This document shows positions 1,004-19,105 of a stretch of DNA of 20,935 nucleotides, in pieces. Numbering within the stretch: the first letter of the stretch is position 1; each line of letters opens with the position of its first letter. Source of the DNA: a virus; the IMG/VR virus record IMGVR_UViG_3300035199_001101, positions 1 through 20,935 of that record; one strand, 5' to 3'. The notes beneath the pieces are model-generated. The model ran no database searches. It had not been told where the DNA came from and worked only from the letters and a program-made list of their open reading frames with translations. The translations under genes were made by a program, and so were the position numbers.

Positions 1004-2386
1004 ATGAGTACTGTAATATTAACAAAGAGACAGCTAGAGGAAGCAATCCATAGAACCACGGAACCAGTATTAAGCGAACTTGTAATCTATAGGGTTAAAA
1101 GCAAAGCTCAGGTTATCCTAGAGAGCGATGAGCTTCTTCGTAGTTTCGTTTATAATTCTCCCCCTACCGTTTACCGACACAATAACGCGCAGGCTATTCA
1201 AGAGGCTCTACTGTTGGAAGCCCTTATTCAGGAAGGGTTTAGGGAATGGTTCAAAAATGCTTTCGATGCTGTGGGTGAAACATTTACAAGTGTAAAGAAG
1301 GGTGTGACAAAGAAAGCGGTAAAGGCATGGAAAGCGGGGGTATCAAAGTTAGATTTGGACGCGCTTCGTATGCGGATTGCTAAAAGTGCAATTAAGATGG
1401 CTGTTAACCCAATTTTAAGAGGTGACCTTCCAAAGAAAATTCGGTCGAGAATGAAAGCTGGAATAGCAGGAGGCGTTCGAGAGGGAATGTTGCATGAGGC
1501 ACTGACTGATGAACAATACAGGGCAGCAATGGGAGCCCTATATCTCGATAAATCTCTTACTCCGACTCAATTTCGTCAGAAGGCGGATGAGTTGGGAATG
1601 TTGACGAAGGCAGAAGGTCAAGAGGTTGGAAACGAACTGGTAGATGCGATAACAGAGAATATTATAGGAGAAAGTGTTGCTGCTGCGGCGGGAGCGGGAG
1701 CGAAAGTTTTACCGGAGTCGTTTTTAGGCAAAGTTAAAATGCTATGTCATATGATGGTAAAGTCATTTGTGTTTGGTTTCCTTGATAACTTTATTATGGT
1801 TATTTGCGGGGCCTCTCTAGATACTACGATTCAAGCGACGATGGGGATTACGGACGCCGCCACGGCCACACTGGTGGCTGGTGGATTTGGAAATACAATA
1901 TCTGATGCTGTTGCAGAATATTTGGCAGATGCGATGGAAAAGAAAATGGATGATAAATTCGGTGTTCCGCCAGATATTCCTGAGGAGGAACTCGCAGGAT
2001 TGAACATAATCTGGAAAGTTCTTTTTAGAAATCCGTCCGTCGTCGGAATTACACTGGGTTGCCTTGTAGGGCTTGGGGTTGGTATGGCTATTATGGGTTA
2101 TTTCGGTATTCCTATAATGGGGGCGCTAATAGGGTTTGCAGGTATTTTAGGACTTAAAGTGGGCGTAGATAAACTTAGGGGTAAGAAGCGAAGCGATCGA
2201 TGGGGAAGCAAGAGCCAGGAAGAAAGAGAGGCCGAGGCTGCTGAAAGAGCCAGGGAAAGGGCTGAAAAAGCTGGTGAAACGGAAACCGAGCCAGAAACTG
2301 TTACTGCTGGTTTTCAACGCGAAAATGATCTTCTAAGGGAATACATTCGATCAACATTCCATAGTATTAATATAGATACGAAGTAA
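1004..2386 (+). CDS. membrane protein with TMEM65-like domain, probable virion protein
   Basis: 460 residues; ATG at 1004 preceded by AAGGA at 993-997. Domains in order: an N-terminal short helix (ILTKRQLEEAIHR, 5-17) resembling the terminal motif of neighbouring genes; an amphipathic Lys/Ala region with TKKAVKAWKAG at about 102-112; a membrane region at about 252-300 that reads FGFLDNFIMVICG (257-269) and then GFGNTISDAVAEYLAD (294-309); two more hydrophobic helices at about 345-366 and 368-388; an E/R/A-rich tail; and a C-terminal NDLLREYIRSTF helix. The pattern F-G-F-x-D-N-x-I-M, a short loop, a Gly/Ala-rich helix and G-N/Q-x-x-S-D-x matches my knowledge of the TMEM65 family (PF10507), whose human member is a mitochondrial inner-membrane protein linked to sodium/calcium exchange. 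In a phage it may sit in the virion and act on the host membrane at entry, or be made late; that is inference. Family call moderately sure, role unknown. Confidence 0.7.
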   Translation: MSTVILTKRQLEEAIHRTTEPVLSELVIYRVKSKAQVILESDELLRSFVYNSPPTVYRHNNAQAIQEALLLEALIQEGFREWFKNAFDAVGETFTSVKKGVTKKAVKAWKAGVSKLDLDALRMRIAKSAIKMAVNPILRGDLPKKIRSRMKAGIAGGVREGMLHEALTDEQYRAAMGALYLDKSLTPTQFRQKADELGMLTKAEGQEVGNELVDAITENIIGESVAAAAGAGAKVLPESFLGKVKMLCHMMVKSFVFGFLDNFIMVICGASLDTTIQATMGITDAATATLVAGGFGNTISDAVAEYLADAMEKKMDDKFGVPPDIPEEELAGLNIIWKVLFRNPSVVGITLGCLVGLGVGMAIMGYFGIPIMGALIGFAGILGLKVGVDKLRGKKRSDRWGSKSQEEREAEAAERARERAEKAGETETEPETVTAGFQRENDLLREYIRSTFHSINIDTK

Positions 2387-2400
2387 AAGTGAAATAAAAT

Positions 2401-2562
2401 ATGCTTTATAGATTCTGTCGAGGTTATTTGATTGGATTATCGATTGTTAGCGTTTACTGGGTCCTACCCCATATACACCCAATAGCCCAGGTTGGATTAG
2501 GAATTAGCATCGGCGTAGTTAGCATAACTTTCCTTAAGTCAATCATGCAGGAAGATAAATAG
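2401..2562 (+). CDS. small two-helix membrane protein
   Basis: ATG at 2401 to TAG at 2560-2562 encodes 53 residues beginning MLYRFCRGYLIG. Two hydrophobic segments at about residues 9-26 and 30-47, separated by a Pro/His turn (LPHIHPIAQ), and a charged end (MQEDK) suggest a small two-pass membrane protein. It lies 14 bases after the stop of the TMEM65-like gene, which also encodes membrane helices, and is on the same strand. No good Shine-Dalgarno sequence is visible (the upstream run is AT-rich), which lowers confidence, but the frame has no alternative use and fills the gap. A small holin-like or membrane accessory role is possible but unsupported by any motif. Confidence 0.5.
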   Translation: MLYRFCRGYLIGLSIVSVYWVLPHIHPIAQVGLGISIGVVSITFLKSIMQEDK

Positions 2563-2573
2563 GTTTCCATAAC

Positions 2574-2588
2574 CATATTTAAAATATG
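2574..2588. repeat. 15-base inverted repeat across a start codon
   Basis: CATATTT at 2574-2580 and AAATATG at 2582-2588 are exact reverse complements around a single A. The right arm contains the ATG at 2586 of the next gene. It could be an operator or an RNA hairpin over the start, or simply AT-rich chance; the gene has no Shine-Dalgarno sequence here. Confidence 0.3.
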
Positions 2589-2861
2589 AGCCTATGTGAG
2601 ACGGGTACGTGTCGTTTCTGTCGCGATGCTGATAAGACACCGGTAATTAGATTAAGAAAAAAAGTTGTTGTTCACGATGCGAACGATGGTCCACAGGTGT
2701 TCATGGTAGAATTTGTTAGACATAACAACGATAGAGTAACCATGGACATATACTATAATTCAAAAATGATAGTGTCCATTCCAAATCAGAATGAGTGGTA
2801 TAAACTAATGGATTTCTTTGAGAATCTTAACAGTGTTACAGACACGGTTCCAAGCATATAA
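2586..2861 (+). CDS. small protein with N-terminal Cys cluster, function unknown
   Basis: 91 residues from ATG 2586. The N-terminus carries three cysteines at 4, 9 and 12 (CETGTCRFC), a spacing that could hold a metal if a fourth ligand such as Asp or His joins. The rest alternates charged and hydrophobic residues and looks like a beta-rich small domain (VFMVEFVRHNNDRVTMDIYY), ending in an aromatic helix (EWYKLMDFFENL). There is no clear Shine-Dalgarno sequence; the upstream inverted repeat at 2574-2588 covers the start. It is in line with the neighbouring probable virion genes. I do not recognise the family. Confidence 0.6.
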   Translation: MSLCETGTCRFCRDADKTPVIRLRKKVVVHDANDGPQVFMVEFVRHNNDRVTMDIYYNSKMIVSIPNQNEWYKLMDFFENLNSVTDTVPSI

Positions 2862-2886
2862 CCGCTAGTAAAGCATATTTATACAC

Positions 2887-3450
2887 ATGAATGTTTTTGA
2901 ATTTATTCTACGCAAAAAACTAAATGAAGATTCTGACCTGGGATTTATGCCAGGGCCCTACTCAACACAGGCCACAGCCAAGGCCGGAGAATCAAAACCA
3001 ACGCTAACACAGGCCGAGAAGGAAGAGCTAGAATCACAGCTTCAGGGTCTATTAAAGCAAAAACAGGATGCTACAAATAGTGGCGATGCCACCACGGCTT
3101 CTAATCTTGGTGCGCAAATAGAAAGACTAAGAAAACAAATTGACCAATCCGTTACAGAAAGCTTTAAAACCATAACAACCGTTGGCCATATAAAGGATAA
3201 AATTTGTAGGCGACTGTTTGAATATGCAGTCCCACAGGGGTTTAGTCTTGATAGGTGGCTCAAATATAGAAAAGACAGCAAGACAACAAACGTCGAGTAC
3301 CATAAACGGCATCCAGATAAAAAATGGAAAGTTGTTTATGCTCATTCGAAAAAAGGTAAACATAAGCGTGGGGAGCCCATGGAAGGCTATGATCGAGTCA
3401 GTTATAATAGGGCCCTTAAAAGAATTAGAGCGGAGAAGGCAGGAGGTTAA
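2887..3450 (+). CDS. coiled-coil protein with basic C-terminus, probable virion component
   Basis: 187 residues from ATG 2887. It begins with a short amphipathic helix (FEFILRKKLNED, 4-15) of the kind found at the ends of its neighbours. A coiled coil follows at about residues 40-93 (repeating E/Q/L/K pattern, e.g. ELESQLQGLLKQKQD and GAQIERLRKQID). The C-terminal third is Lys/Arg/His-rich with aromatic residues (DKKWKVVYAHSKKGKHKRG at about 144-162), like a nucleic-acid- or scaffold-binding tail. It is followed five bases later by the GTG start of the next gene, whose AGGAGG lies inside this gene's last codons, so the two are probably translated as a unit. Exact function unknown; a structural or scaffold role is inferred from composition and position. 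Confidence 0.65.
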   Translation: MNVFEFILRKKLNEDSDLGFMPGPYSTQATAKAGESKPTLTQAEKEELESQLQGLLKQKQDATNSGDATTASNLGAQIERLRKQIDQSVTESFKTITTVGHIKDKICRRLFEYAVPQGFSLDRWLKYRKDSKTTNVEYHKRHPDKKWKVVYAHSKKGKHKRGEPMEGYDRVSYNRALKRIRAEKAGG

Positions 3451-3454
3451 TAAG

Positions 3455-4576
3455 GTGGCTAAAGAAATACTTGTGGAAGGTCTAAACAATAGAGTTTTGC
3501 TAAAGGAAACGCACGAGATGGCCCTCGATGATATCTCTACACTTGTTATTTTTCCTTATCCCCGTAAGGAAATGATGCTTGAAATGCAAAAAAATATGCC
3601 CATTGAGCTTTTAATTGAAGGCAATGAGATTGATACAGAGAATGATCTTGACGTTATTGAGGTCGTTACCGAATTAGACAAGGTGCATGTTTCAATGTTG
3701 GAAATTAGAGAAGTATGCCTTACTAGAAGAAGGCAGATGATGGAACAGGGTAAACAGGTTTCAGATGAGACATTTGACCGTATTGTATTTGAAGCTATAT
3801 CGAACACATTTCCACAATTAAATGAAATCTTACCAGTTTTGGGAGCCATCGGCCGGGGTGTTGTTGGGGCAGCAAGGGCGGTTGGTAGTGCCGCGGTGGC
3901 TGGGGTAAAAGCGGTTGGTAAAGGAGTTGATGTGGCTGCAAAGTGGGCGGCAAAGAATATTGGACCAATGGCAAAGAAAGCTTGGGGTGTTATTAAGGAC
4001 ATCGGGCTTGAAGGGTGGAAGGGTATTAAGAAGGTAGCTGGTGAATCTTGGGAGGTGATAAAGAACCTGTCAGATAAGTTAGTTCCAACAGCAAAAAAGG
4101 CCTGGGCGGCAACAAAAAATGTTGTTAGCAAGGGTAGAGATGCAATTGCTAAATCATGGGGTGAAATTTCCCCAGATTTAAAAAAGCTTTCCGATGGCCT
4201 TAAAGGGAAAGCTGGCGATTTGGCAAATAATTTTAAGGCGATGGAAAAGAAAGCTCCACAAACAATGCAAAAAGCGATGCGAGATTCTGGGCTTCATCCA
4301 AAGGATATGAGTAAGGTAAAGGCGCAGCTTGCTGATCCTGCGGCATTATCAAAAATGATTAGCGGTGCGTCAGCAGCTGGAGATAAACCAGATCCTGAAG
4401 CACTGCAGTTTGCTATGATGTTGCCATTTATGATGATGATGATGACAATGATGACAGCCCAACATGCACAGACGGGCCAGGGACAACTTGCGGCTGGCCG
4501 AAAAATATCTAAGCGTAGGGTACAGCAAATAATAAACGAAGAAGTAAAAAAACAATTTTATACCATAAACGGATAG
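3455..4576 (+). CDS. probable virion protein with amphipathic Trp repeats and poly-Met segment
   Basis: The start is GTG 3455 because a perfect AGGAGG lies at 3441-3446, eight bases upstream; the frame stays open to 3218, but that part runs through the preceding gene. The product is 373 residues. Residues 1-125 are mixed alpha/beta. Residues about 128-240 are Gly/Ala/Lys/Val-rich amphipathic helix with Trp at 164, 177, 188, 199, 217 and 235, so three Trp are spaced exactly 11 apart (177, 188, 199). This resembles 11-residue membrane-binding repeats in general form. Residues 321-334 are a Met-rich hydrophobic stretch including MMMMM. The C-terminus carries RKISKRRVQQIINEE (349-363), the recurrent terminal motif of this block. 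Such a protein could bind or insert in membranes at infection (inference). I recognise no named family. Confidence 0.7.
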   Translation: MAKEILVEGLNNRVLLKETHEMALDDISTLVIFPYPRKEMMLEMQKNMPIELLIEGNEIDTENDLDVIEVVTELDKVHVSMLEIREVCLTRRRQMMEQGKQVSDETFDRIVFEAISNTFPQLNEILPVLGAIGRGVVGAARAVGSAAVAGVKAVGKGVDVAAKWAAKNIGPMAKKAWGVIKDIGLEGWKGIKKVAGESWEVIKNLSDKLVPTAKKAWAATKNVVSKGRDAIAKSWGEISPDLKKLSDGLKGKAGDLANNFKAMEKKAPQTMQKAMRDSGLHPKDMSKVKAQLADPAALSKMISGASAAGDKPDPEALQFAMMLPFMMMMMTMMTAQHAQTGQGQLAAGRKISKRRVQQIINEEVKKQFYTING

Positions 4577-4586
4577 GGGTATTTGA

Positions 4587-4792
4587 ATTATTAATATCGG
4601 GGACATTGTAGTGTATAAAAACCCAAGAAGATTACTAAGTTCTCGACAAAGTATTCCATGCGGAATTATTGTATCTACAGACGGATTTTTTTTGCAAAAG
4701 TTTTATGGTCCGATGGGATAATTTGTTTGGAAGATTTGGATATATTAAAGGTATATAAATCAAAAACGGAAATAGATAATGAAAATAAGTAA
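4587..4792 (+). CDS. small phage protein interrupted by a -1 frameshift at T8
   Basis: Two overlapping frames join into one sensible small protein. Frame A runs from just after TGA 4584-4586 through NIGDIVVYKNPRRLL and GIIVSTDGFF to TAA 4719-4721. Frame B (-1) begins after the T8 run at 4686-4693 and reads AKVLWSDGIICLEDLDILKV to TAA 4790-4792. Joined, they give about 68 residues. Small phage proteins of the form GD-x-V ... GI(I/V)VSI-x-G ... KVLWSDG ... DLE(V/I)I are common, so both halves belong together. The start is not obvious: AGGGG at 4575-4579 is seven bases before ATT 4587, so an ATT start or the GTG at 4611 are options. Function unknown. It could be a programmed frameshift, a decayed gene or a homopolymer sequencing error; the sequence alone does not decide. 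Confidence 0.55.
4686..4694 (+). other. T8-G slippery site, U UUU UUG heptamer
   Basis: Eight T at 4686-4693 followed by G form the heptamer T TTT TTG in the zero frame (codons TTT 4689-4691 and TTG 4692-4694), a classical -1 slippery sequence. A one-base backward slip continues at GCA 4694-4696 and opens the frame encoding KVLWSDG. I see no strong pseudoknot just downstream by eye. Confidence 0.45.
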
Positions 4793-5036
4793 ACAACAGC
4801 TACAAAATATTATTATGGAAGAAATGGAATCATTTGCCGAGGACCGATTGTTACGTAAATGGGATAAAGATGATTCACGAATACCGCATATCCAATCCTA
4901 TGAAAAGGTTATGGGGTTTTTAGGTAGAAATCCAGATCTTGTATGGAAAGGTATAAAAAAGGTTATGGATATAACTGGTTCGACATGTCCAAGATCGACT
5001 GCTATAGCTGTATCAGATTATTTGGCTAAATTATAA
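4779..5036 (+). CDS. small protein with N-terminal KISKQQLQNIIMEE motif
   Basis: 85 residues from ATG 4779. It begins MKISKQQLQNIIMEEMESF, an almost perfect copy of the terminal motif seen at the C-terminus of the protein at 3455-4576. The remainder is a small helical domain with an aromatic core and the sequence STCPRSTAIAVSDYLAKL at the end. It overlaps the frameshifted gene upstream by 14 bases and its TAA shares an A with the next ATG (TAATG at 5034-5038), so it is translationally coupled to the lectin gene. The short length plus terminal motif suggests an accessory virion protein held to a larger particle by that motif (inference). The globular part is not recognised. Confidence 0.65.
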   Translation: MKISKQQLQNIIMEEMESFAEDRLLRKWDKDDSRIPHIQSYEKVMGFLGRNPDLVWKGIKKVMDITGSTCPRSTAIAVSDYLAKL

Positions 5037-5737
5037 TGCGAGATGTTATACGAAATTTTTTAATTGAATTATCTGGCCATAAAAGGGTTTATGGTGATAT
5101 TAGACTGGACGATTTTTCGGAAGACCTCGGGGTTTCCAAAGCTCATGGAGCAACAGAGTTAGTATTTGACGAATTAAATAAAAAGAAATTTGCTAGACTA
5201 ACATCTCATCGTAACCAAAACGGAATATTAAAAATAAGCGACACCCTAACATTTGGTGAAGATGGATTTATAAAAATTAAGTGCACATTTAAAATTTCTA
5301 AAGCTGGAGGAGCATCGGATGCAGACGGTTCAGGCGCTGATGGAATTAAGTTAATACTAGCTGGAGATAAAGGCGAAGTAGAAGTATTTATTGACACCTA
5401 TCACAATGTAGAGGATGAATCCGGAAATCATATTGACCTTACTTTAAATGGTAATAAGGTGGGGGAAGCATACCATAAAGATCGATTAAATAATGATATA
5501 GCTTATATACTTATGGTGGAGGTTAGGAACGGGGTGATCACGGTAGGTATACAAAAAGATCTACAGTCTGAGGATGACGAACCAATGTCAAAACCGCTCA
5601 TAGCACAACCGATAGATGCATTAAAAGACCTTGGAAAAAATTTTACAATTCAATTCATAGGAATTACGGGCGAAGGATATCAAACGCAAGATATTCTGGG
5701 GTTATCATACCAATCAAATTATCATCTAGATTTTTAG
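5036..5737 (+). CDS. L-type (legume-type) lectin domain protein, probable virion glycan binder
   Basis: 233 residues, start ATG 5036 overlapping the previous stop. Residues 1-12 (MRDVIRNFLIEL) form a short amphipathic helix. The rest reads as a concanavalin-like jelly-roll: a beta-rich start with FARLTSHRNQNG, KCTFKIS at 82-88, GADGIKLIL (100-108), then FIDTYHNVEDESGNHIDL at 118-135, NGN, VEVRNGVITVGI, and FTIQFIGITGEGYQTQDIL at 203-221. In L-type lectins the corresponding segments are GADG(I/L)AF, V-E-x-D-T-x-x-N-x-x-D-x-x-x-NH-(I/V)G-I, and the GF-x-A-x-TG strand. Asp120, Tyr122, Asn124, Asp128 and His132 fit metal- and sugar-site positions; the usual Glu two residues before the Asp is Phe here. 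It may bind host-surface glycans from the particle. The family call is fairly sure, the target unknown. Confidence 0.7.
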   Translation: MRDVIRNFLIELSGHKRVYGDIRLDDFSEDLGVSKAHGATELVFDELNKKKFARLTSHRNQNGILKISDTLTFGEDGFIKIKCTFKISKAGGASDADGSGADGIKLILAGDKGEVEVFIDTYHNVEDESGNHIDLTLNGNKVGEAYHKDRLNNDIAYILMVEVRNGVITVGIQKDLQSEDDEPMSKPLIAQPIDALKDLGKNFTIQFIGITGEGYQTQDILGLSYQSNYHLDF

Positions 5738-6070
5738 TTATTTAAATTGTAGAATTAAAATAACTGTAGCTAGTACTAAGCATATATGAGTATTTAGCGT
5801 CATATCTTCATTCATATGAATACGAGTTAATATAGCAAAGATAATTGTTCCAACCGCAAAAGCCATTAATTTTAGCGGCCATAGTTTATAAAAATATCCG
5901 TATCCAATTTCAGTAAATTTTATTGCGAGCCAAGATACCAGTATACCGCTTGAAGCGACTAAAACGCTATTTTCTTTTATGGTTTTAGATAAAAATTGTC
6001 CATTACTAGAATACCAAATAATGACTTGCATTATTATCATTATTAAGAAACAAGCTATTAGGTTTTTCAT
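5738..6070 (-). CDS. small four-helix membrane protein (DMT-like size)
   Basis: 110 residues on the minus strand, stop abutting the lectin stop at 5737 with no spacer. Four hydrophobic segments at about residues 2-19, 36-52, 66-82 and 93-108 predict a four-pass membrane protein. Features include SNGQFL (22-27) after helix 1, SWLAIKFTEIGYGYF between helices 2 and 3, and a conserved-looking KLWPLKLMAFAVGTIIFAIL. I have seen small phage membrane proteins of this general pattern, but no function is established for them. Its start overlaps the end of the DUF192 gene by four bases (6067-6070), placing it last in a minus-strand operon of four genes. It may be a transporter-like or envelope-modifying protein; this is a guess from topology. 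Confidence 0.7.
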   Translation of the reverse strand: MKNLIACFLIMIIMQVIIWYSSNGQFLSKTIKENSVLVASSGILVSWLAIKFTEIGYGYFYKLWPLKLMAFAVGTIIFAILTRIHMNEDMTLNTHICLVLATVILILQFK

Positions 6071-6444
6071 TTAAAATCTATTGCTAATCCTGGGTAAACT
6101 TTATTTCTGTTGCAGAATCCGGCGGTCACTTCAAGAATATATTTGCATGGAGCCTTTGATACTATGTTCTTTATAGAAAGTGGTTTCGCGTTTTCGTATA
6201 TATCTACAATTTTTTTATCTTTATCTATAAAAAGCATGTCAAGTGATATAAAAGTATTTTTCATCCAAAACCTATGACACTTTGATTCTGGCATTAGGAA
6301 TAACATTCCTTCGTTATTTCTTAGCGGTATCATTCTATACATTAGTCCTTTTGCAATATCTTGTTTTGAACTACAAACTTCAACCAACATTTGTAAATCA
6401 ATATCAGAAAAGTATATAGATGTTGTTTTTAATCCATTATACAT
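6067..6444 (-). CDS. DUF192 family protein
   Basis: 125 residues. DUF192 (PF02643) signatures run through most of it: GLMYRMIP (33-40), EGMLFLMP (45-52), FWMKNTFISLDMLFID (59-74), DIYENAKPLS (81-90), and KYILEVTAGF (101-110). These match the family pattern G-L-M-x-R, G-M-L-F, W-M-K-N-T-x-I-x-L-D-x-x-F-I-D and the C-terminal L-E-x-x-A-G. Bacterial and archaeal members are small beta-barrel-like proteins, often exported, with no settled function. Here no N-terminal signal peptide is visible, so it is probably cytoplasmic or the start is different. It overlaps the 67-residue gene upstream by eight bases and the membrane protein downstream by four. DUF192 genes are found in other phages; role unknown. 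Confidence 0.9.
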   Translation of the reverse strand: MYNGLKTTSIYFSDIDLQMLVEVCSSKQDIAKGLMYRMIPLRNNEGMLFLMPESKCHRFWMKNTFISLDMLFIDKDKKIVDIYENAKPLSIKNIVSKAPCKYILEVTAGFCNRNKVYPGLAIDFK

Positions 6445-6640
6445 TTTTATCTTTTTCTATTGCTTGTATAGTTTTATTTACTTCGTGAAATATTAATTTT
6501 CTTAGATTTTGCTCTGTGATCTTTAAAGTAGAATTAACTTTATTTTTTTTATTTATCCACTGTTTATCTGAAATGTTCATATCTGATAATGATATACCTT
6601 GCTCTGCTATAACGCTTTCCATAAATTCTTCGTATGTCAT
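6437..6640 (-). CDS. small protein with C-terminal KITEQNLRKLIFHE motif
   Basis: 67 residues in the minus-strand operon, overlapping both neighbours (6637-6640 upstream, 6437-6444 downstream). The N-terminus (MTYEEFMESVIAEQGISLSD) is acidic and helical, the middle is Lys/Asn-rich, and the last third carries KITEQNLRKLIFHE at residues 40-53, the same pattern as the terminal motifs of the plus-strand structural block (KISKQQLQNIIMEE and KISKRRVQQIINEE). This suggests that it docks to the same partner, although it lies in the envelope cassette. No known family recognised. Confidence 0.6.
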   Translation of the reverse strand: MTYEEFMESVIAEQGISLSDMNISDKQWINKKNKVNSTLKITEQNLRKLIFHEVNKTIQAIEKDKNV

Positions 6641-7596: not shown

Positions 7597-8358
7597 TTAA
7601 TTTGAGGAATTTATTTCCTTAAGAGATAATCTATTTTGATATTTTTGTAAAAAATCATATAAAATTTGAAAAGATACACTGAGCGAAATATTTTCTATTC
7701 CACCAAACTTACTATGAACAACACCTATTAATTGAAACCTATCATTAAAAATTGGAGATCCTGAACTTCCACCTTGGACGGGAATTGTATAAAGTGATAC
7801 TCCTGGCCTAGCATTTCCTGAATAAAAACCCTCGAAGGTTGGAACCATTCCTTCACTAAAAATTCCTAGGGGTGCCGCAAGATTATAAACTCTTTCGCCC
7901 ACCCTGGGCGATTGTTGCGATACTGGGACCGGCGGTAAAAATTTTTCTTTTATTAAAACAAGACAAATATCATGTTCAGACTGGCTGTCGACCATTTCTA
8001 TATTTTCATATGAATTTCCCTGATAATCAATTATTTTCATATGGAATGAAATGGTATAATCATTGATCGTTTCAGTTTGATTAAGTCGATTACAAATATG
8101 CTCTGCAGTTAAAATAAGCGTTCCCTCCTGTAACCTTAATACAGCAGCCCCCGAACCTGAAAATGCATTTATCTGTGCTCTTTCGCATTTATCTTCGGTA
8201 CATCTTTTTGCATATACTTCTGTGTATATTTTAACGAAAGAATGATATAATGTAGGTGGAACGCTATTAACCCTTTGTGGTCGTGTTGTACAACAAGACA
8301 TCATAGTCAAGCAGAATATAAAAACCAGCGAAACATTATACGCTTTAAAATAGTGCAT
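7597..8358 (-). CDS. secreted trypsin-like serine protease, putative lipoprotein
   Basis: 253 residues. Residues 1-22 form a signal peptide with a lipobox-like end (FCLTMMSCC), so Cys22 or Cys23 may be lipidated and the protein anchored to a membrane facing the periplasm. The chymotrypsin-fold triad is readable: His87 in LTAEHIC (usual TAAHC), Asp130 in SEHDICLVL, and Ser199 in QGGSSGSPIF (G-x-S-G-S-P), followed by LIGVVHSKFGG. The NLAAPLG segment at 159-165 is typical of S1-type bacterial trypsin-like peptidases (Trypsin_2). Extra Cys at 53 and 58 may form a disulphide. No Shine-Dalgarno sequence is clear upstream. A host-surface protease or superinfection-blocking lipoprotein is plausible; substrate unknown. 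Confidence 0.85.
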   Translation of the reverse strand: MHYFKAYNVSLVFIFCLTMMSCCTTRPQRVNSVPPTLYHSFVKIYTEVYAKRCTEDKCERAQINAFSGSGAAVLRLQEGTLILTAEHICNRLNQTETINDYTISFHMKIIDYQGNSYENIEMVDSQSEHDICLVLIKEKFLPPVPVSQQSPRVGERVYNLAAPLGIFSEGMVPTFEGFYSGNARPGVSLYTIPVQGGSSGSPIFNDRFQLIGVVHSKFGGIENISLSVSFQILYDFLQKYQNRLSLKEINSSN

Positions 8359-8537
8359 ATTAATACATATCGAAAAAAAATATTATACATTCCTGGTTCG
8401 CTATTTTATTTTTAATTTGAACCAGTTTAAACCAGCATCTGTAACACTGCTTTTACTTTAACTTATTTTAGAAAACAATTAGTTTATAAACTGTTATCTA
8501 CTGTATAGAATACAGATAATATTCTTAGAGGAACAAT
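8359..8537. promoter_or_regulatory. divergent intergenic region with direct repeats and hairpin
   Basis: 179 bases between the leftward protease gene and the rightward GAPDH gene. Visible structures are a direct repeat AACCAGTTTAAACCAG at 8419-8434 (AACCAG twice), and a hairpin CTGTAT-AGA-ATACAG at 8501-8515 that can extend by TTAT/ATAA around a CTA bulge. AGAGGA at 8527-8532 is the ribosome binding site for the ATG at 8538. I find no convincing full sigma-70 promoter. The hairpin just before the ribosome site could regulate translation or mark the RNA start. Confidence 0.4.
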
Positions 8538-9605
8538 ATGAATATATTGGTTATAGGTACTGGGACAATTGGTGAACCTTTAATAGGATTACTGGCTGAT
8601 AATAAACAGTCACTTGGATTTAGTAATCTTGTCTTTCATAAAAGAACTCCTTTAAGCGATGAAAAAGCTAAAGTCAATTCGTTAATTGATAGGGGTGCTA
8701 AGTTAGCTGTAAATAGTAGCTGTGTTTCAGAATTTAAAGACCTTGGTCATAAAGTATCATATGTTTTTGAGGATGCTTTAAATCAATCCGATGTTGTAAT
8801 TGATTGTACACCTGCCGGCTTAAAACATATGGATAGTTATTATTTACCGTTATATTCCAGCGATGATAAAAGAAGGTTCTTTATAGCTCAGGGTAGTGAA
8901 AAGAACTTTGGTGTACCGTTTGCGTATGGTATAAACGATAAGGTTTTAAGTGAAATAAAGCAGAACTTTATACAAGTCGTCAGTTGTAATACTCACAATA
9001 TTTGTTCGTTAATGAATACGTTGTCAGGTAAAAATATATCGAATATATTATTTGCTGATTTTGTGTGTATTAGAAGAGCGAATGATATAAGTCAAGATAA
9101 CTCGTTCATCGCCTCACCCCATGTGGGGGTTCATAATACCACAAATTTTGGTACACACCATGCGCAAGATGCGTATGACCTGTTTAGAACATTAGGACAC
9201 ATTCCAAATATTTTTTCAAGTGCCATAAAAACAAACACGCAGTATATGCATACAATAAGGTTTAATATTACGATTAAGGGTTCGGTTACAAATAAAAATG
9301 TTGTTGAAATGTTAACGGAGAATAAATACACGGCGGTAACAGAAAAAACATCTGCTAATAAAGTTTTTTCTTTTGGAAGGGACCACGGATATTACGGAAG
9401 AATTTTAAATCACACCGTTGTATCATTACCCACGCTGTGTGTTACACAATTGGCTGGATTAACAAGAATATCGGGATTTTGTTTTACACCACAAGACGGC
9501 AACTCTTTATTAAGTAGCGTAGCAGCCGGAATGTATGGTATTCACAATGATAGTTATGAAAACCATATACAATGTTTAGATAAATATTTATTTCAGGAGA
9601 TATAA
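8538..9605 (+). CDS. archaeal-type (class II) glyceraldehyde-3-phosphate dehydrogenase homologue
   Basis: 355 residues; ATG 8538 with AGAGGA five bases upstream. The N-terminus is a Rossmann fold, NILVIGTGTIGEPL (2-15), comparable to VLVNGYGTIGKRV of archaeal GAPDH. VVIDCTPAGL (86-95) is the equivalent of VVDGAP-x-x-IG. The catalytic segment QVVSCNTHNIC (146-156), with Cys150, matches archaeal VVSCNTTGLC, and CIRRANDISQD (177-187) matches VRRAADPNDD. The His pair in NFGTHHAQD (203-211) corresponds to PSHHGPD, and QYMHTIRFNITIKG (235-248) to LMHMHTLMVEVDG. The length is close to the about 340 residues of the class. The reaction would be NAD(P)-dependent oxidation of glyceraldehyde 3-phosphate. 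As a phage gene it would be an auxiliary metabolic gene. It overlaps the next small gene by one base. The tail of the protein is less conserved, so substrate shift is possible. Confidence 0.7.
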   Translation: MNILVIGTGTIGEPLIGLLADNKQSLGFSNLVFHKRTPLSDEKAKVNSLIDRGAKLAVNSSCVSEFKDLGHKVSYVFEDALNQSDVVIDCTPAGLKHMDSYYLPLYSSDDKRRFFIAQGSEKNFGVPFAYGINDKVLSEIKQNFIQVVSCNTHNICSLMNTLSGKNISNILFADFVCIRRANDISQDNSFIASPHVGVHNTTNFGTHHAQDAYDLFRTLGHIPNIFSSAIKTNTQYMHTIRFNITIKGSVTNKNVVEMLTENKYTAVTEKTSANKVFSFGRDHGYYGRILNHTVVSLPTLCVTQLAGLTRISGFCFTPQDGNSLLSSVAAGMYGIHNDSYENHIQCLDKYLFQEI

Positions 9606-9784
9606 TGGATTCAAATAAAGTAGAGATGATCGTACAATTACGACAATGGGTCATAGATAGGTTTGCAGAACTACAGGTAAACCAGCCGACTGCTCAAATA
9701 ACGCATAAGGAAGTTGGACAGTCGCTTGAGACTATTATTAGAAGTTTAGAAGACCTCATAAGAGATGATGTAAACTTTGAATAG
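9605..9784 (+). CDS. small helical hypothetical protein
   Basis: ATG 9605 (shared A with the GAPDH stop TAA, TAATG) to TAG 9782-9784, 59 residues. AGGAGA at 9595-9600 is well placed upstream. The sequence starts MDSNKVEMIVQLRQWVIDRF and ends in acidic helix (RSLEDLIRDDVNFE). It is probably a single helical hairpin, perhaps a small dimer or regulator. Translational coupling to GAPDH suggests a joint expression unit. No family recognised and no catalytic motif visible. Confidence 0.6.
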   Translation: MDSNKVEMIVQLRQWVIDRFAELQVNQPTAQITHKEVGQSLETIIRSLEDLIRDDVNFE

Positions 9785-9794
9785 TTTAATTTGT

Positions 9795-9814
9795 CCTGTA
9801 ATATTTACTACAGG
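9795..9814 (+). promoter_or_regulatory. hairpin abutting the HAD-Nudix start codon
   Basis: CCTGTA at 9795-9800 and TACAGG at 9809-9814 are exact reverse complements around an 8-base loop, and the right arm ends directly before ATG 9815. The only Shine-Dalgarno-like bases (AGG) are in that arm, so the hairpin could hide the start region until melted by a translating ribosome or a regulator. It could also be chance. Confidence 0.35.
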
Positions 9815-10711
9815 ATGTATAATAGGATAGACATATATGATTTTGATGAATCTCTTGTTCATCATTTATCAATTGACGCGGCAAAAAATAAATATTATAA
9901 AAAACATAATAGAGAATGGCCGTATGTTAACTGGTGGGAAGTCCCTTCCTCACTGGATCCGTCTATGGGAATGTCTGTAAATCTTGATATATTAAATGAG
10001 GCCCTTATATCCCAGGCCAGTCATGACGTTTTGTTTATTATTATGACTGGTCGCGTATTAAAATTAAAAAACCAAGTAAAGAATATATTAAAAATCCTTG
10101 GATTAAAGCCAAATATTTTACTTTTATCTCCAGACGGATTTACGTTACCCTTTAAAGCAAACGTATTAAAATTTTTTATAAAAAAATATCCAACAACCCC
10201 TATTAGAATGTACGAAGATAAACCTGAATATGCTCAAGAATATACACGCATATTGAAAGATAATAATGTTTTAGGTGATTTAATTTTGGTACAACCAAAA
10301 AATACGATTCCAATTGAAAGATCATTTTTTTACGATCCGCTACCTACTACAGCAGGTTTTATATCACGAATTAACGATAAATTATTTACCCTAGTTACAA
10401 ATAATAATATGCTCGATTTTCCGAAGGGCGGTATAGAAAAAAATGAATCTATACAACAAGCTGCAGTCCGGGAATTCATGGAAGAAACTGGAACAATACC
10501 TTATTTTCCAGATTACAGTATAAAATTTAGAATCGGTAATACCGTGTTATTTCCGTGTAGCGTAAAAGGAAAACCTGTAATACGAAAAAATCCAAGAACG
10601 AATGAATTTGAGCATAGGGACTATATTATAATAGATCCAGTTGATGCAGAGAGTCTTATGATACCATATTTAAGATCAGCAGTAGTTGCATGTTATAAGG
10701 GTAATATTTAA
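9815..10711 (+). CDS. HAD-superfamily domain fused to Nudix hydrolase
   Basis: 298 residues from ATG 9815 (a TTG at 9791 would add eight residues; neither has a strong ribosome site). The N-terminal half is HAD-like: motif I YDFDESL (8-14, Asp9 and Asp11), motif II IIMTGR (75-80), Lys114 in PFKANVLKFF, and motif IV MYEDKPEYAQEY (132-143, Glu134/Asp135). The spacing and the WWEVP segment fit the HAD_SAK-type group, which is linked by context to nucleic-acid or nucleotide repair. From about residue 180 a Nudix domain follows, with the box GGIEKNESIQQAAVREFMEE then TG (205-226), matching G-x5-E-x7-R-E-U-x-E-E-x-G. It may hydrolyse a nucleoside diphosphate derivative and remove a phosphate in turn. 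Substrates are unknown. The fusion is seen directly; the joint pathway is inference. Confidence 0.75.
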   Translation: MYNRIDIYDFDESLVHHLSIDAAKNKYYKKHNREWPYVNWWEVPSSLDPSMGMSVNLDILNEALISQASHDVLFIIMTGRVLKLKNQVKNILKILGLKPNILLLSPDGFTLPFKANVLKFFIKKYPTTPIRMYEDKPEYAQEYTRILKDNNVLGDLILVQPKNTIPIERSFFYDPLPTTAGFISRINDKLFTLVTNNNMLDFPKGGIEKNESIQQAAVREFMEETGTIPYFPDYSIKFRIGNTVLFPCSVKGKPVIRKNPRTNEFEHRDYIIIDPVDAESLMIPYLRSAVVACYKGNI

Positions 10712-10712
10712 T

Positions 10713-11180
10713 ATGGATTGCATAAAATATTTAACAGAGTTCATATCAGAAGTGACTCGCACGGAAAAGAAATTAACCTATACATATTCGTATATTAGAA
10801 TAATTTCACCCGCTTCCGCAAGAATAGATAACATACTTTTACAAATGAGAGCAATACCCGGTGTGGTCGTTGTTAGCCAACGAAATCAGGTTAGAATGTC
10901 AGATATTGTCAGTAGAGCTATAGACGTCGTAGTAAAATCTTATAAAGGAACAATGTCTGAAGATAAATTTAACCAATTCTTGAAAGATGAAACAATACGC
11001 ATTAAAAATGTAAATTCTGTTATTTTAAAAACTAAACAGGAAGTAGAGGGTGGAAAATCAAAAGAGGAAAAGAAGTATGACCCCATCCAACGAATAGCCA
11101 CCCCAAAGAAAAGAGTAGAAACGTTACCATCAACAAAAAATGAACCAGAAAAGAAACAGGTGATAGTAAAAGGTTTATAA
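10713..11180 (+). CDS. small alpha/beta protein with Lys/Glu-rich tail, function unknown
   Basis: 155 residues from ATG 10713, one base after the Nudix stop. A first helix (MDCIKYLTEFISEVTR) is followed by a beta-alpha-beta pattern YSYIRIISPASARIDNILL and then AIPGVVVV, reminiscent of a ferredoxin-like fold with a helix carrying RIDNILLQMRAIPG. After this comes a helical segment (MSEDKFNQFLKDET) and a disordered, Lys/Glu/Pro-rich tail of about 45 residues (EEKKYDPIQRIATPKKR...). I do not recognise the family. It sits directly in front of the chaperonin-like gene (seven bases between), so a partner role, for example substrate or co-factor, is conceivable, but it does not look like GroES. Confidence 0.6.
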   Translation: MDCIKYLTEFISEVTRTEKKLTYTYSYIRIISPASARIDNILLQMRAIPGVVVVSQRNQVRMSDIVSRAIDVVVKSYKGTMSEDKFNQFLKDETIRIKNVNSVILKTKQEVEGGKSKEEKKYDPIQRIATPKKRVETLPSTKNEPEKKQVIVKGL

Positions 11181-11187
11181 TACCTTT

Positions 11188-12489
11188 GTGCATACAAAAA
11201 CGGTACATTTAGAACAATACAAACAATCGTTATTGGAAGAATTAAGAAAATTTTCCAATAATAATAATTATTTATATTCCACCAACGGAAAATCATTTTT
11301 TACAAATAGAAAATTTTCGATAATTGAAAAGTATAATTCTTCTGATAAAAACATCGTTAGAAGTATATTTTTATCATCAATGTTTCAAGCTGAGCAAAAA
11401 GCCCCAGAAGTATCCAATATTTTTATACCGTTATATTTGGATCTATACGATAGTGATAAAAAAATAGATATAGCTAATATATCTAAATTATTAAGAAAAT
11501 TATCTTATATACCAGATAGACAATGGATAAAGACTTACATACAACAAAGTATATCTGATAAAACACTATATGATATGTTATTAAATGCGTTGGATTTTGC
11601 TGGATTGTATGGAAAATTAAGTATAGATTACACAGATAGAAATGAGCATAGGCTGGATTTATACACCGGAAATAGATTTTCCGTAGGGTTTTCTCATGAT
11701 TTTACGCAACTACAACAAGTTATAAGAACTAATCCAAGGATTCTTATTGTAGATGGAATCATAGAAAAAACATCTCAGATAGATCACTGGTTACAAGAAT
11801 CTTTAAAGCGAAATGAATCAGTTGTAATATTTTGCATTGGGATGTTACCAGATGTAATCCAGACATTAAGCTTAAATTTTAAGTTAAAGAAACTGGATGT
11901 AATTCCCATAATCGTTTCATTAAATAACGAAACGGTAAATACTTTAAAGGATATTTCTATAATTTGTAATACAAGATATGTAACCATAGATAGAGGAGAC
12001 GTTTTATCTACAATTAAGTATGATGAGTTTTCTACCATACCGTCGATCGTACTTACGAGGTCAGATATTACTATAGAGAACCCCAGGAATAGCACAAATA
12101 TCGAACTTCATATTTCGCAATTAAGGCAAAAAGCCACCAAGGGTGAGGATATGGCAAAACAATTTATTGAAAAAAGAATTAAGTCGATGTCATCACAAGT
12201 TGCAAATTTATATATTGCATCTTCCACCCCCGCTAATAAATTAAAGAATCTGGAAGAAATAGATAGGACGTTATTAATGTTACCACAAATTTGTAATTAC
12301 GGTATTATAAAATTCGATGATAGGCTTATTGCTTTACTTGAAAAAGAATTAAACTGTAAACTTACTATGACAAAAAAAGTGGTACTTAATACTGAAAAAT
12401 CGTATTCCATGCTTTTATCTACACTTTATTTTGTAAAATCAACAATTAATACCATTAAAAATACTAATTTTGCTGTTCTTGAAGATTGA
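11188..12489 (+). CDS. divergent GroEL-like chaperonin (HSP60) lacking the ATP-site motif
   Basis: 433 residues; GTG 11188. From about residue 142 it follows the GroEL order. GKLSIDYTD (142-150) and LYTGNRFSVGFSHDF (158-172) correspond to GxITVEEG and E(V/L)VEGMQFDRGYLSPYF. RILIVDGIIE (184-193) matches the apical ILIxDKKI, and LKDISIICNTRYVTIDRGD (253-271) matches LEDIAxLTGGxVIxEExG. FIEKRIKSMSSQVANLYIAS (326-345) matches LxERxAKLxGGVAVIxVGxAT. The C-terminus STINTIKNTNFAVLE matches ASxxxTTExxVAE. This is the apical and intermediate domain plus the second equatorial half. The N-terminal equatorial half is shrunken: the nucleotide signature GDGTTTATVLA is absent, with APEVSNIFIPLYLDL (72-86) in its place. 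It may be a non-ATPase subunit or a fold-keeping relic. Length is about 110 below GroEL. Identification by motif order is good; function unknown. Confidence 0.7.
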   Translation: MHTKTVHLEQYKQSLLEELRKFSNNNNYLYSTNGKSFFTNRKFSIIEKYNSSDKNIVRSIFLSSMFQAEQKAPEVSNIFIPLYLDLYDSDKKIDIANISKLLRKLSYIPDRQWIKTYIQQSISDKTLYDMLLNALDFAGLYGKLSIDYTDRNEHRLDLYTGNRFSVGFSHDFTQLQQVIRTNPRILIVDGIIEKTSQIDHWLQESLKRNESVVIFCIGMLPDVIQTLSLNFKLKKLDVIPIIVSLNNETVNTLKDISIICNTRYVTIDRGDVLSTIKYDEFSTIPSIVLTRSDITIENPRNSTNIELHISQLRQKATKGEDMAKQFIEKRIKSMSSQVANLYIASSTPANKLKNLEEIDRTLLMLPQICNYGIIKFDDRLIALLEKELNCKLTMTKKVVLNTEKSYSMLLSTLYFVKSTINTIKNTNFAVLED

Positions 12490-14110
12490 ATAATCGTTTT
12501 TTAATCATCCACGCCGCTTCTGATAGCTCATACATTTGACCCTCAACAAATAGGTTAAGATCTGCTTCTCCACCAGCTTTTCCTATAATTTTATTAAGCT
12601 TTTGTCCAAGATATCTACCTATACCCTTTTTTCTATATTTTTTACCATGAACATATCTTTGTAGAATTTCTTTTCCGACAACGCTCTTCTTACCTTCGAG
12701 TTCTTTAACTGCGGTAGCTAATTTATCGGGGTCATCTTTCAATTTCTCTTTAACTAGGTCTATCACTTTATCAGCAACCCCTGTAAGAGTAGAATCATCC
12801 ATCCCCGTAATAGCCTCATCCGCAAGTTCCCAACCTTTTCGTCCATCCCCGCCTTGATCTTTACCCTGCTTTAAAGCTTTTGCAAATTCAGAATCTACAT
12901 CTATTCCAAGATCCGCAAGTTTGATGGTTCCAAGTCTAACCTTATCTTCTCTTTCTACCTGGACATCCCCGGCAAACGCATCAACAGGAGCCTGAGCAGC
13001 AATATCTATTTGGCTTTGTTCATTTTCTGGTACCGGAGGAAATTTTTGTGGTTCTTCCCCATGAAGTCCCTTGATGCTCATAAATTGAAGTCCAGCAGGA
13101 GATACGACATTTAGTTTTCCAAATATCGTCCACTTAAGCTCTTTTGGTGGTTTAACCTTGGCCTTAATTGCTTTTCCTACCTGCGCAATCGCTTTTTTGA
13201 CTTTTCCACTAATCATTTCAGCCTGTATTCTAACTTCATCAGAGACTTCATCTCTCGGAAAATTATTGTCTAGTACGCTGGGATGAAATGCAAGCAACGG
13301 TAGGCTTTCCAGCCTCGCCGCTTCGTCCTTTTCAATTTTAGTTACGTCTATGTTTATTAAACTTCCAACTTCTTCTTGAACACCTCTACTTAGGGCAACA
13401 GAAGCCTGTTTCATTGCAAACTCGATTGTTATTGGGTCGGGAAGTGTTGAAAACATTCTACCTATACTTGCCATAAATCCTCGTTCTATGATAAGTTCCA
13501 ATGCATCTATTACTTTTTCGTATTCTTTTGTGTTAAACATTCTAGGATTTGTACTCGGAAATACTAGGTTTTTTCCCTCTAGAAACGGATTTCCCATTTT
13601 AGAATTTGCAGTAAGGTTTTTATTGTAGGTTTTCATATCTTCGAACTGCTTCCTCGCTAATTTTAATAGCTTAACAGCCCCAGCTCGTTCTTCCTCGGAT
13701 ACTTTTCTCGATACTGATCTTTCATTGATATATTTAACCAATGCCATAGAATATTCTGCTTCGTTTAATGATGTATGAACATCGTTACTATCAACCAGGG
13801 TTTTAGTAATATTTTCAAACAATGTTAGATTATTATAGCTTTTTTGTGCCGCGTAGTTAGCTTTAAGCTTTAGGGACTCTATAATAATATTTTTTCGTAG
13901 AGAGTCAATTTTATCTTTTTTTTCATCAATCGCTTTTGATTCGTTGATGGTTTTGATGATCATCTCATAAGATTTTTTATGCTTATTATCATATACTGTA
14001 TTTATTTTATCGTTATTTTCTATAAGCCTTCTGCTTACAATGGGGTTATCTAACATTAAAAGATTAACAAACAGTTTCTTTGCAATCTTATCTTCCTCAA
14101 GGTATTGCAT
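12464..14110 (-). CDS. large helical protein, probable virion structural component
   Basis: 548 residues on the minus strand; start ATG 14108-14110 chosen because AGGAG ends five bases before it, whereas the ATG at 14111-14113 is only two bases away. The first 170 residues are helical and Lys/Glu/Asn-rich. A short run ASIGRMFSTLPDPITIEFAM (about 214-233) and the Pro-rich PPVPENEQ (about 366-373) break it. The middle contains basic IAQVGKAIKAKVKPPKELKW. The C-terminal part is charged helix and ends SEAAWMIKKRLFNLQEQ, similar in kind to the terminal helices of the plus-strand structural proteins. No catalytic motif. It is alone on its strand, its stop overlaps the convergent chaperonin gene by 26 bases, and a plus-strand gene starts 74 bases beyond its start. 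A large head or tail protein is likely, but I do not recognise it. Confidence 0.65.
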   Translation of the reverse strand: MQYLEEDKIAKKLFVNLLMLDNPIVSRRLIENNDKINTVYDNKHKKSYEMIIKTINESKAIDEKKDKIDSLRKNIIIESLKLKANYAAQKSYNNLTLFENITKTLVDSNDVHTSLNEAEYSMALVKYINERSVSRKVSEEERAGAVKLLKLARKQFEDMKTYNKNLTANSKMGNPFLEGKNLVFPSTNPRMFNTKEYEKVIDALELIIERGFMASIGRMFSTLPDPITIEFAMKQASVALSRGVQEEVGSLINIDVTKIEKDEAARLESLPLLAFHPSVLDNNFPRDEVSDEVRIQAEMISGKVKKAIAQVGKAIKAKVKPPKELKWTIFGKLNVVSPAGLQFMSIKGLHGEEPQKFPPVPENEQSQIDIAAQAPVDAFAGDVQVEREDKVRLGTIKLADLGIDVDSEFAKALKQGKDQGGDGRKGWELADEAITGMDDSTLTGVADKVIDLVKEKLKDDPDKLATAVKELEGKKSVVGKEILQRYVHGKKYRKKGIGRYLGQKLNKIIGKAGGEADLNLFVEGQMYELSEAAWMIKKRLFNLQEQQN

Positions 14111-14183
14111 CATTTCTCCTTATACTATGGTACTAATACTACATATTATTTATCTAGCGCAACGTATAGGAGGTAACAAAAAA

Positions 14184-14411
14184 ATGAGTTTAGAACTAGA
14201 CGTACAAAAAGAAATCAACGTTCTACGCGATACTGTAAAAAGTACGGTGTACACTAATTTAGTAAAAGCGAGTAAAGCTGGAAGGGTTTCTTTAGATCTA
14301 AAACAGGTAACGGATATACGAAGTTTAATAGAGTCTTCTATTAACCAGGCATTCACCAACGGTCGAAGTGGGGTTAGCAAGGCAATTTCTCATTATGTAT
14401 CCAAGGTATAG
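14184..14411 (+). CDS. small helical protein, function unknown
   Basis: 75 residues from ATG 14184, chosen for the perfect AGGAGG at 14168-14173 ten bases before it. The sequence MSLELDVQKEINVLRDTVKS leads into basic Ser/Ala/Val-rich helices (VKASKAGRVSLDLKQVTDIR, then SSINQAFTNGRSGVSKAI). No known motif. It is divergent from the minus-strand structural gene (start 14110), so 14111-14183 should hold promoters for both. It overlaps the following gene start (14395) by 17 bases, suggesting coupled translation. Confidence 0.65.
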   Translation: MSLELDVQKEINVLRDTVKSTVYTNLVKASKAGRVSLDLKQVTDIRSLIESSINQAFTNGRSGVSKAISHYVSKV

Positions 14412-14865
14412 TAAACATCTTGTGGAGTGCGTGTGTACTTTACCGCAATATCAATCCATTGATCCTGTAGTGTATCATAAGTTTACCGTTTTTTCTACAA
14501 TGGATGAAAACGGTGTCGTAAATCCTAAGTTGGTGACATGTAATAACTGCGAAATAATTCACAGAATTAGTGATGTTTGTAAGTCGGACATTCTTCACGA
14601 CGGATCTGGTAGATACGGAGTACGAACAATCGATGATGTAAAAAGTGGTTTACCACCTTCTCTTGTAAAATTAGTCGATAAAAATGAATTAAACTTAGCA
14701 ACGTGGGAAGAAATAGAGTATAAATTTAAAAACCAAGATTCCAGTCCTATAGTTTTAGGAAAAGAACATGTCAAGGGTGATGTGTTTGGAAAATATTTAG
14801 AAATTAAAAGTTTAGATGATTTTTTTATTGGTGATTTTCATAGAAACGATGCTATAGGAGAATAA
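14395..14865 (+). CDS. Cys-rich putative zinc-binding phage protein
   Basis: 156 residues from ATG 14395, inside the tail of the previous gene. The N-terminal part carries ECVCTLP (Cys12, Cys14), then TCNNCEIIH (Cys49, Cys52, His56) and VCKSD (Cys62), a set of ligands consistent with a zinc ribbon of about 60 residues. The C-terminal half is acidic with a helix TWEEIEYKF and hydrophobic strands KYLEIKSLDDFFIGDFH. Related Cys-x-Cys ... CNNC small phage proteins occur next to ClpP and helicase genes, to my knowledge without function. Here it precedes a small helical gene and ClpP (14867, 15125) on the same strand in a tight cluster. It may bind nucleic acid or a protein partner; not assigned. 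Confidence 0.65.
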   Translation: MYPRYSKHLVECVCTLPQYQSIDPVVYHKFTVFSTMDENGVVNPKLVTCNNCEIIHRISDVCKSDILHDGSGRYGVRTIDDVKSGLPPSLVKLVDKNELNLATWEEIEYKFKNQDSSPIVLGKEHVKGDVFGKYLEIKSLDDFFIGDFHRNDAIGE

Positions 14866-14866
14866 A

Positions 14867-15124
14867 GTGGTAAAATTATATGACGATGATTCTAGTGACT
14901 TAAAGAAACTAAAAAATTTACAGGTATGTCGTGATATTGTTAAAAAAATTAATGATTTTGGAGTATCACAGCAGCAAGTGTTAAATTTGATTTATTTACT
15001 CGCTCTTGAGCTGGATAACGCTGATTTAATGAAACGAATAGTGAAAGCAATATCAGAGGATAGACCGATAATGGCATCTGACGATGATCAAGGGTCTTTC
15101 ATTATAACAAACCAGGAGGACTAA
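14867..15124 (+). CDS. small acidic helical protein upstream of ClpP
   Basis: 85 residues, GTG 14867 with AGGAG at 14856-14860 six bases before it. The pattern CRDIVKKINDFGVSQQQVLN then LIYLLALELDN is a helix-turn-helix-like pair of helices with a hydrophobic core, ending in an acidic tail (SEDRPIMASDDDQGSFII). No enzyme motif. It ends at 15124, directly against the TTG start of ClpP, and its last codons contain the ClpP ribosome site AGGAGG (15114-15119). This arrangement suggests coupled translation and perhaps a partner for the protease, but this is inferred only from position. Confidence 0.65.
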   Translation: MVKLYDDDSSDLKKLKNLQVCRDIVKKINDFGVSQQQVLNLIYLLALELDNADLMKRIVKAISEDRPIMASDDDQGSFIITNQED

Positions 15125-15727
15125 TTGGGAAGATTAAAATCGAGTAGTTTATCTACTGAAGAAATTATAATGGCGTCCAGCGGCCAGCAACAGACAGTTA
15201 ACCAAGAGGATGAGAGACTAGTATATCTTACAGGAGAGATTAATGAAGCAAGCGTTACAAATACTATAGCACAATTATTTGCATTTGCAAAAAGAAATTC
15301 GTATAAACCAATCTACTTAGTCATTAGTACTTACGGTGGTTCTATAGATGAAATGTTTTCGTTATACGATGCAATTAAATTTGTAAAACCCCCCGTTTAC
15401 ACTGTCGGTCTAGGGAAAATTATGTCTGCTGGTGTGCTATTACTATCGGCGGGTCAAGAAGGTCATAGATTAATAGGTAAAAATGCAAGAATTATGATAC
15501 ACTCTTCCTGGGGCGGCGCGATTGGAAATGTTTTTGAAGCAGAAAATGAAATGAAAGAATGGAAGCGTCAACAAAAGCAAATGGAAAAACTTTTGGCTAT
15601 CGAAACGAATAAATCTATTGATGAAATTAGCAAAATCATGGAAGAAAAAATAGATAGATATCTAGATTCGAGTGAAGCAATTGATTTTGGTATTGTCGAT
15701 GGACACCTAAATGACAATAAGTTATAA
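15125..15727 (+). CDS. clpP-like: ClpP-family serine protease (S14), possible head maturation protease
   Basis: 200 residues; start TTG 15125 chosen because AGGAGG at 15114-15119 lies five bases upstream (ATG 15170 is the alternative, without a comparable site). ClpP fold elements are VYLTGEINE (33-41), IYLVISTYGGSIDEMFSLYDAI (63-84), then the active-site segment LGKIMSAGVLLLSAG with Ser101, ARIMIHSSWGG with His126, and EAIDFGIVDG with Asp192, completing the Ser-His-Asp triad. Length is close to bacterial ClpP (about 200). It would cut peptides in the cytoplasm, or act during capsid maturation as in other phages; no ClpX-like ATPase is in the window. It ends inside the helicase gene start (overlap 15711-15727). 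Confidence 0.9.
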   Translation: MGRLKSSSLSTEEIIMASSGQQQTVNQEDERLVYLTGEINEASVTNTIAQLFAFAKRNSYKPIYLVISTYGGSIDEMFSLYDAIKFVKPPVYTVGLGKIMSAGVLLLSAGQEGHRLIGKNARIMIHSSWGGAIGNVFEAENEMKEWKRQQKQMEKLLAIETNKSIDEISKIMEEKIDRYLDSSEAIDFGIVDGHLNDNKL

Positions 15728-17330: not shown

Positions 17331-17378
17331 TTTACAATGTCGTTCATAGTTTTAAAATAATAGAAAAGGAGGTTTGAA

Positions 17379-17567
17379 ATGTCAAACTTAAATAATCTTT
17401 GGGAAGAAATGAAAGTTCTAGTTGATACCGTCGAAGTTGACGTATTTAAAAATAACGCCGGTAATAAAGCTGCGGGAGTACGTGCAAGAAAAGGATTAAG
17501 AGATATTAAGAGTAAGGCTGGTGAGCTTGTGAAGGTTTCTTTAACCGCAGATAAACAATCATCTTAG
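17379..17567 (+). CDS. histone H1-like (Hc1-type) small basic protein
   Basis: 62 residues, ATG 17379 with AAGGAGG at 17366-17372 just upstream. After an acidic helix (NLWEEMKVLVDTVEVDVFK) comes the signature AGNKAAGVRARKGLRDIKSKAGEL at about residues 28-51; the Hc1-type/H1-like bacterial family reads KGNKAAGTRVRKALQDIKKLAQELR, so the match is direct. Such proteins bind DNA non-specifically; in phages they may compact host or phage DNA, or act at low copy in the virion. The length is normal for the short form without the Lys/Ala tail of chlamydial Hc1. The end overlaps the convergent sigma-like gene by nine bases. Confidence 0.8.
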   Translation: MSNLNNLWEEMKVLVDTVEVDVFKNNAGNKAAGVRARKGLRDIKSKAGELVKVSLTADKQSS

Positions 17568-17830: not shown

Positions 17831-17867
17831 ATTATGTGATATTTATAATTGAATATTGGTGGTAAAG

Positions 17868-19100: not shown

Positions 19101-19105
19101 CAGTA

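Follow-up and report, generated by a model that had tools for sequence, protein, structure and literature searches.

Four packaged proteins of phage T4, IPI, IPII, IPIII and Alt, bear an N-terminal capsid-targeting sequence (CTS; the N-terminus of both IPII and IPIII reads MKTYQEFIAEA) in which residues 4 and 7 serve targeting and residues 8 and 10 processing, and are cut by gp21, a protease that cleaves after L/I-x-E (PMC9026906). Alt has a C-terminal propeptide too (PMC5694885). In phage P1 the first 30 residues of DarB suffice for sending a reporter to the capsid (PMC9024508), and in SPN3US the diverged paralogs gp53 and gp54 are identical over their first 15 residues (PMC5694885).

Here we analyze a 20,935-nucleotide stretch of viral DNA (IMG/VR record IMGVR_UViG_3300035199_001101, hereafter the window), in which a sequence-only reading had noticed a recurrent motif at the ends of otherwise unrelated proteins, and we describe the peptide, leader A, to which that motif belongs. 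Like the T4 CTS, leader A is an N-terminal peptide common to unrelated protein bodies (15-22 residues, against 10-19 in T4), with hydrophobic or aromatic residues at i, i+3 and i+4, Glu at i+6 and an [LI]xE motif, its L8, I11, I12 and E14 being spaced exactly as Y4, F7, I8 and E10 of T4; its phages further share with T4 a Gp23 head, an S77 protease and fast-changing carrier genes. Unlike the T4 sequence, it has a consensus of its own (MKITKxQLxxIIKEE), is basic, places Leu or Ile where T4 has Tyr or Phe, often has a second LxE site and can head 20 or more proteins in one genome rather than four; and whereas T4 CTS-bearing proteins are packaged, leader A proteins are predicted to be so, as judged here from sequence. 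T4 itself holds no strict leader match, and the peptides are too short for homology to be argued beyond spacing. A likeness between leader A and DLIKEEK in T4 gp67 was dropped at a matrix score of -21. P1 DarB resembles the putative role of leader A in having an N-terminal packaging signal, but the Dar proteins show no common consensus and belong with another head and another protease. The propeptides of the SPN3US and phiKZ ejection proteins offer a comparison for the predicted processing of leader A, since a gp21-like protease there cleaves head proteins behind a Glu motif, but their motif is AxE or SxE, they mostly exceed 100 residues and they come from a different phage lineage.

Copies of leader A in the window

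Candidate copies were scored with a matrix of 15 positions, derived from IMG/VR copies and containing no window sequence, the degenerate search pattern behind it being itself modelled on the motif as first noticed; across 300 composition-shuffled windows, the best score per window has a mean of -0.4, a 95th percentile of 5.2 and a maximum of 10.0. Three of the four copies originally proposed exceed that maximum and thus lie beyond chance: KISKQQLQNIIMEE at the N-terminus of an 85-aa protein (4782-4823, plus strand, 30.7 bits), KISKRRVQQIINEE in a 373-aa protein, 10 residues ahead of its C-terminal end (4502-4543, plus strand, 24.9 bits), and, weakest of the three, KITEQNLRKLIFHE toward the C-terminus of a 67-aa protein (6482-6523, minus strand, 13.4 bits), where His replaces the near-invariant E14 of the leader. 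The fourth, ILTKRQLEEAIHR at the N-terminus of a TMEM65-like protein (1016-1054, plus strand), was rejected at 0.7 bits, a value inside the null distribution of the 300 shuffled windows. The sequence-only reading had located all four peptides exactly, and its statement that the motif sits at protein ends is true of the window, but the C-terminal placement of two of the three supported copies is unusual compared with other loci, and only the 85-aa protein carries the motif as a short N-terminal peptide.

The 85-aa protein (4779-5036, plus strand), with the N-terminal leader MKISKQQLQNIIMEEMESFAED (4779-4844, plus strand, 30.7 bits), is the standard leader case within the window. Its AlphaFold2 model (mean pLDDT 70) predicts a helix at residues 5-27, a linker and then a separate three-helix body; a fold search with the model gave no match, and no relatives of the body were found in IMG/VR or in annotated phages. 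For the 373-aa protein (3455-4576, plus strand), whose N-terminus MAKEILVEG contains an [LI]xE motif too, profile matches are weak and tape-measure-like only, and no relatives were found in IMG/VR. On the precedent of T4 Alt, the chances are about even that the two C-terminal copies act as C-terminal propeptides. More speculatively, T4-CTS-like spacing may be read in two further N-termini: that of the 67-aa protein (6437-6640, minus strand), which starts MTYEEFMESVIAEQG and follows h..h[LI].E, and that of a 233-aa protein, MRDVIRNFLIE (5036-5068, plus strand; I5, F8, L9 and E11). This spacing class reaches 10.1% at the N-termini of untagged genes versus about 4% elsewhere.

From 7.6 kb onward the genes of the window match three large leader-carrying phages (G014, 293 kb; G011, 273 kb; and G015), several of them in the same order. 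This region (7597-20934) encodes a trypsin-like protease, a helicase, a sigma-like protein, PhoH and a glycosyltransferase, with the helicase, sigma-like protein and glycosyltransferase 44-57% identical to those of G014 and G011. The leader genes of the window adjoin the trypsin-like gene, as does the array of about 19 leader genes in G014 (47.6-57 kb, next to a trypsin-like gene at 58.6-59.2 kb). The 20.9-kb fragment includes no capsid gene and no prohead protease gene, the head region falling outside it. Also present in the window are a phage protein with a TMEM65 domain (1004-2386, plus strand; PF10507, E 2e-12), a family best known from mitochondria, for which a pattern scan found no relatives in IMG/VR; a 549-aa protein, likewise with no relatives found in IMG/VR; a 355-aa protein that starts like a dinucleotide-binding one (GTGTIG; 8538-9605, plus strand), 54% identical to a G015 gene and with no match in a Pfam search; and a HAD_SAK_1 domain fused to a NUDIX domain (9791-10711, plus strand).

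Leaders A and B on unrelated proteins

Across IMG/VR, the degenerate DNA pattern for MKI[ST]KxQLxxIIxEE finds at least 193 sites in at least 119 stretches, which strongly supports the earlier remark that MKITK-type ends occur in many marine phage proteins; among the matches listed, each site opens a reading frame, and there are often several per contig. The IMG/VR copies give the consensus MKITK[SRQ]QL[KR][QR]IIKEE; a weaker LxE, which the seed pattern had left free, comes after it at residues 20-22, and information content reaches background level by about residue 24. Since the seed pattern fixed I11, I12, E14 and E15, the conservation of these residues partly reflects how the copies were selected. 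Twelve carrier contigs, together 1.8 Mb with 2,205 ORFs, hold 105 genes that score at least 12 bits, whereas reversed or shuffled proteins give none; about 103 of the 105 have the motif at a possible start, although plain longest-ORF calling leaves some gene starts uncertain. The motif as first written gives 42 matches in these 2,205 genes and none in the reversed proteins. Among the loci listed, the matrix places 760 sites of at least 14 bits at N-termini versus 21 at internal or C-terminal positions. The pattern without an initiator occurs in only 66 IMG/VR stretches, mostly a few residues from the start and with a few true C-terminal cases; rare C-terminal copies outside the window include those in L245, L237, L088 and L114. 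Two loci (L240 and L168) carry tandem leaders on one N-terminus, and hxE precedes 12 of the 21 internal copies, as if the tag were excisable from both sides.

The leader is phage-specific and nearly absent from prokaryotes: a collection of 84,980 prokaryote species yields only 8 stretches with it. They come from four MAGs, and a Gp23 capsid is encoded in two of these. The two are Methylococcaceae and Halobacteriovorax MAGs with several leaders each (NHDW01000006.1 and PBIO01000025.1; L282, L283 and L285-L287), and the contigs concerned are probably phage contigs binned with bacteria. A tblastn search of annotated phages with the leader gave one weak match, in a 484-kb phage, the low-complexity filter being possibly limiting; a strict match is absent from T4, S-CAM4, RM378, Mel-JY01 and immuto, all of which have T4-type capsid genes. 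Our literature search found no paper with either leader string.

The bodies behind leader A are mostly unrelated: among the loci listed, 415 distinct leader proteins fall into 287 body clusters, 237 of them singletons, and within one contig the DNA similarity among leader genes is confined to codons 1-15. Leader genes are also arrayed, 71 of 104 adjoining another leader gene where 10 would be expected. Bodies occur without the leader inside larger proteins as well; the match between L080:3240 and a 1,030-aa G015 protein, for instance, starts just past the leader. Because unrelated genes acquire it, the leader appears to work as a portable address label, and the initial proposal of a short, end-located tag common to unrelated phage proteins is strongly supported. 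The bodies are more acidic than other proteins from the same phages, and a protein-family search with 100 leader proteins could assign almost none to known families; ClpP matches in G005 and G009 were set aside as chance, as were a few low scores. The T4-type late promoter TATAAATA is not enriched upstream of leader genes. One small domain, around EWVxxKITxxxDYLxxVxxYL, is found behind leader A and also inside larger proteins of carrier phages (L025:3975-4577, G011:240536-243400, G001:177676-178281 and G006:74824-75399).

Comparison of leader A bodies also uncovered a second, T4-CTS-like leader on unrelated proteins, leader B (MKLIMEN[WF]RxF[LIV]xE; consensus MKLIMENWRxFLxE), whose W8, F11, L12 and E14 have the same spacing as in leader A and the T4 CTS. 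Its carriers among the IMG/VR matches listed include L065, L076, L079, L097, L213 and others, and five leader B genes lie close together in G015 (150638-154868). Among the matches listed E14 is present at 66% and conservation stops there, the pattern having fixed residues 1-8 only. Leader B bodies include guanylate-kinase-like, zeta-toxin-like, AAA and acetyltransferase domains. A body starting IDLDIE or a close variant stands behind leader A in L050 and L088, and domains homologous to it are found within G015 proteins headed by leader B: that homologous bodies sit behind both leaders is our strongest argument that A and B do the same job.

Association with T4-type heads and competing explanations

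All 12 carrier contigs of at least 150 kb encode both a T4-type Gp23 capsid and an S77 prohead protease; in the 34 large carrier contigs Gp23 is found in 23, S77 in 24 and an HK97-type capsid or S78 protease in none, counts that cover carriers alone, so that the link could partly reflect lineage. Conservation of leader A stops at [LI]xE, the cut motif of the T4 protease, with [LI]12-x-E14 in 95% of the copies analyzed, and hxE occurs at residues 16-28 in 71% of leader proteins versus 20% further in. Directly after the S77 gene, moreover, a small conserved gene (128-148 aa) starts MKKSxLKxxIKPLVKECIxEVLxEEG, an N-terminus that scores weakly with the matrix except in G011 and G014 and whose design seems related to leader A. 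Because T4-type capsid and protease genes in all of the largest carriers, CTS spacing, the [LI]xE end and the protease-adjacent N-terminus converge, the head is favored as destination; of the two places originally suggested for the tag, head and baseplate, nothing points to the latter. We consider it probable that the motif serves head-delivered proteins as a capsid-targeting propeptide, much as in phage T4.

The leader might instead be a docking helix for some other partner, be it the baseplate or tail, a replication or host-takeover complex, or the membrane, unlinked to the head. Such a role would suit a basic, hydrophobic-striped helix (whose helical moment is not exceptional given its composition), bodies almost without known function, and the position of the largest array, which in G014 lies more than 100 kb from the head genes. 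It would leave unexplained, however, the exclusive link to the T4-type head and protease, the T4 CTS residue spacing, the [LI]xE where conservation ends and the related N-terminus beside the protease, and we regard it as unlikely.

It is very improbable that the three window copies belong to a common helix type and resemble leader A by chance: the 67-aa copy does lack E14 and the TMEM65-like one is at background, but the two strongest copies far exceed the null maximum and the relatives of the window are rich in leaders, and for the 85-aa and 373-aa copies chance is already disfavored.

Leader codons are identical at a rate of 0.60 versus 0.42 predicted from codon usage, indicating that some copies are recent, and this excess could also be expected if a shared 5' end were kept for DNA or RNA reasons, as a recombination cassette or translation enhancer, and not for the peptide that it encodes. 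Against this, about 40% of shared leader residues differ in codon within the same contig, upstream DNA similarity does not extend past a weak ribosome-site signal, leader B, a different peptide, keeps the residue spacing and precedes proteins that contain homologous domains, and C-terminal copies exist, making such an origin extremely improbable. A leader peptide of RiPP or toxin type, with processing that serves secretion or modification, would account for a conserved leader, variable followers and small-gene arrays but is extremely improbable in view of bodies of up to over 400 aa, an L,D-transpeptidase domain among them, the co-occurrence of carriers with phage heads and a cut motif that suits the prohead protease.

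A candidate route into the head and its implications

On the capsid-targeting reading, carrier proteins would attach late in infection to the protein core of a T4-type prohead, held by L8, I11 and neighboring hydrophobic residues of their 15-22-residue leader helix, and would be enclosed as the shell assembles. The S77 (gp21-type) protease would cut after [LI]xE, at I12-x-E14 or L20-x-E22, within the leader or at its end, and the body thus freed inside the head would be injected together with the DNA; for leader proteins we infer each of these steps, from binding to the core and cleavage to a place in the virion and injection. More broadly, we lean towards a picture of general head import in large marine T4-type phages through at least two interchangeable leaders, A and B, with dozens of unrelated proteins per virion, some of them C-terminally tagged, and with the whole injected set readable from sequence alone.

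To our knowledge, the proteins injected at the start of infection are known for few phages, and proteomics is needed to identify them. Should the leader prove to be a head address, hundreds of orphan genes of abundant marine phages would become predicted injected effectors, for takeover or anti-defence, the T4 CTS would be a single instance of a widespread code, and a short tag would be at hand for packaging chosen proteins. One sequence signature may thus reveal which proteins large marine T4-type phages inject.
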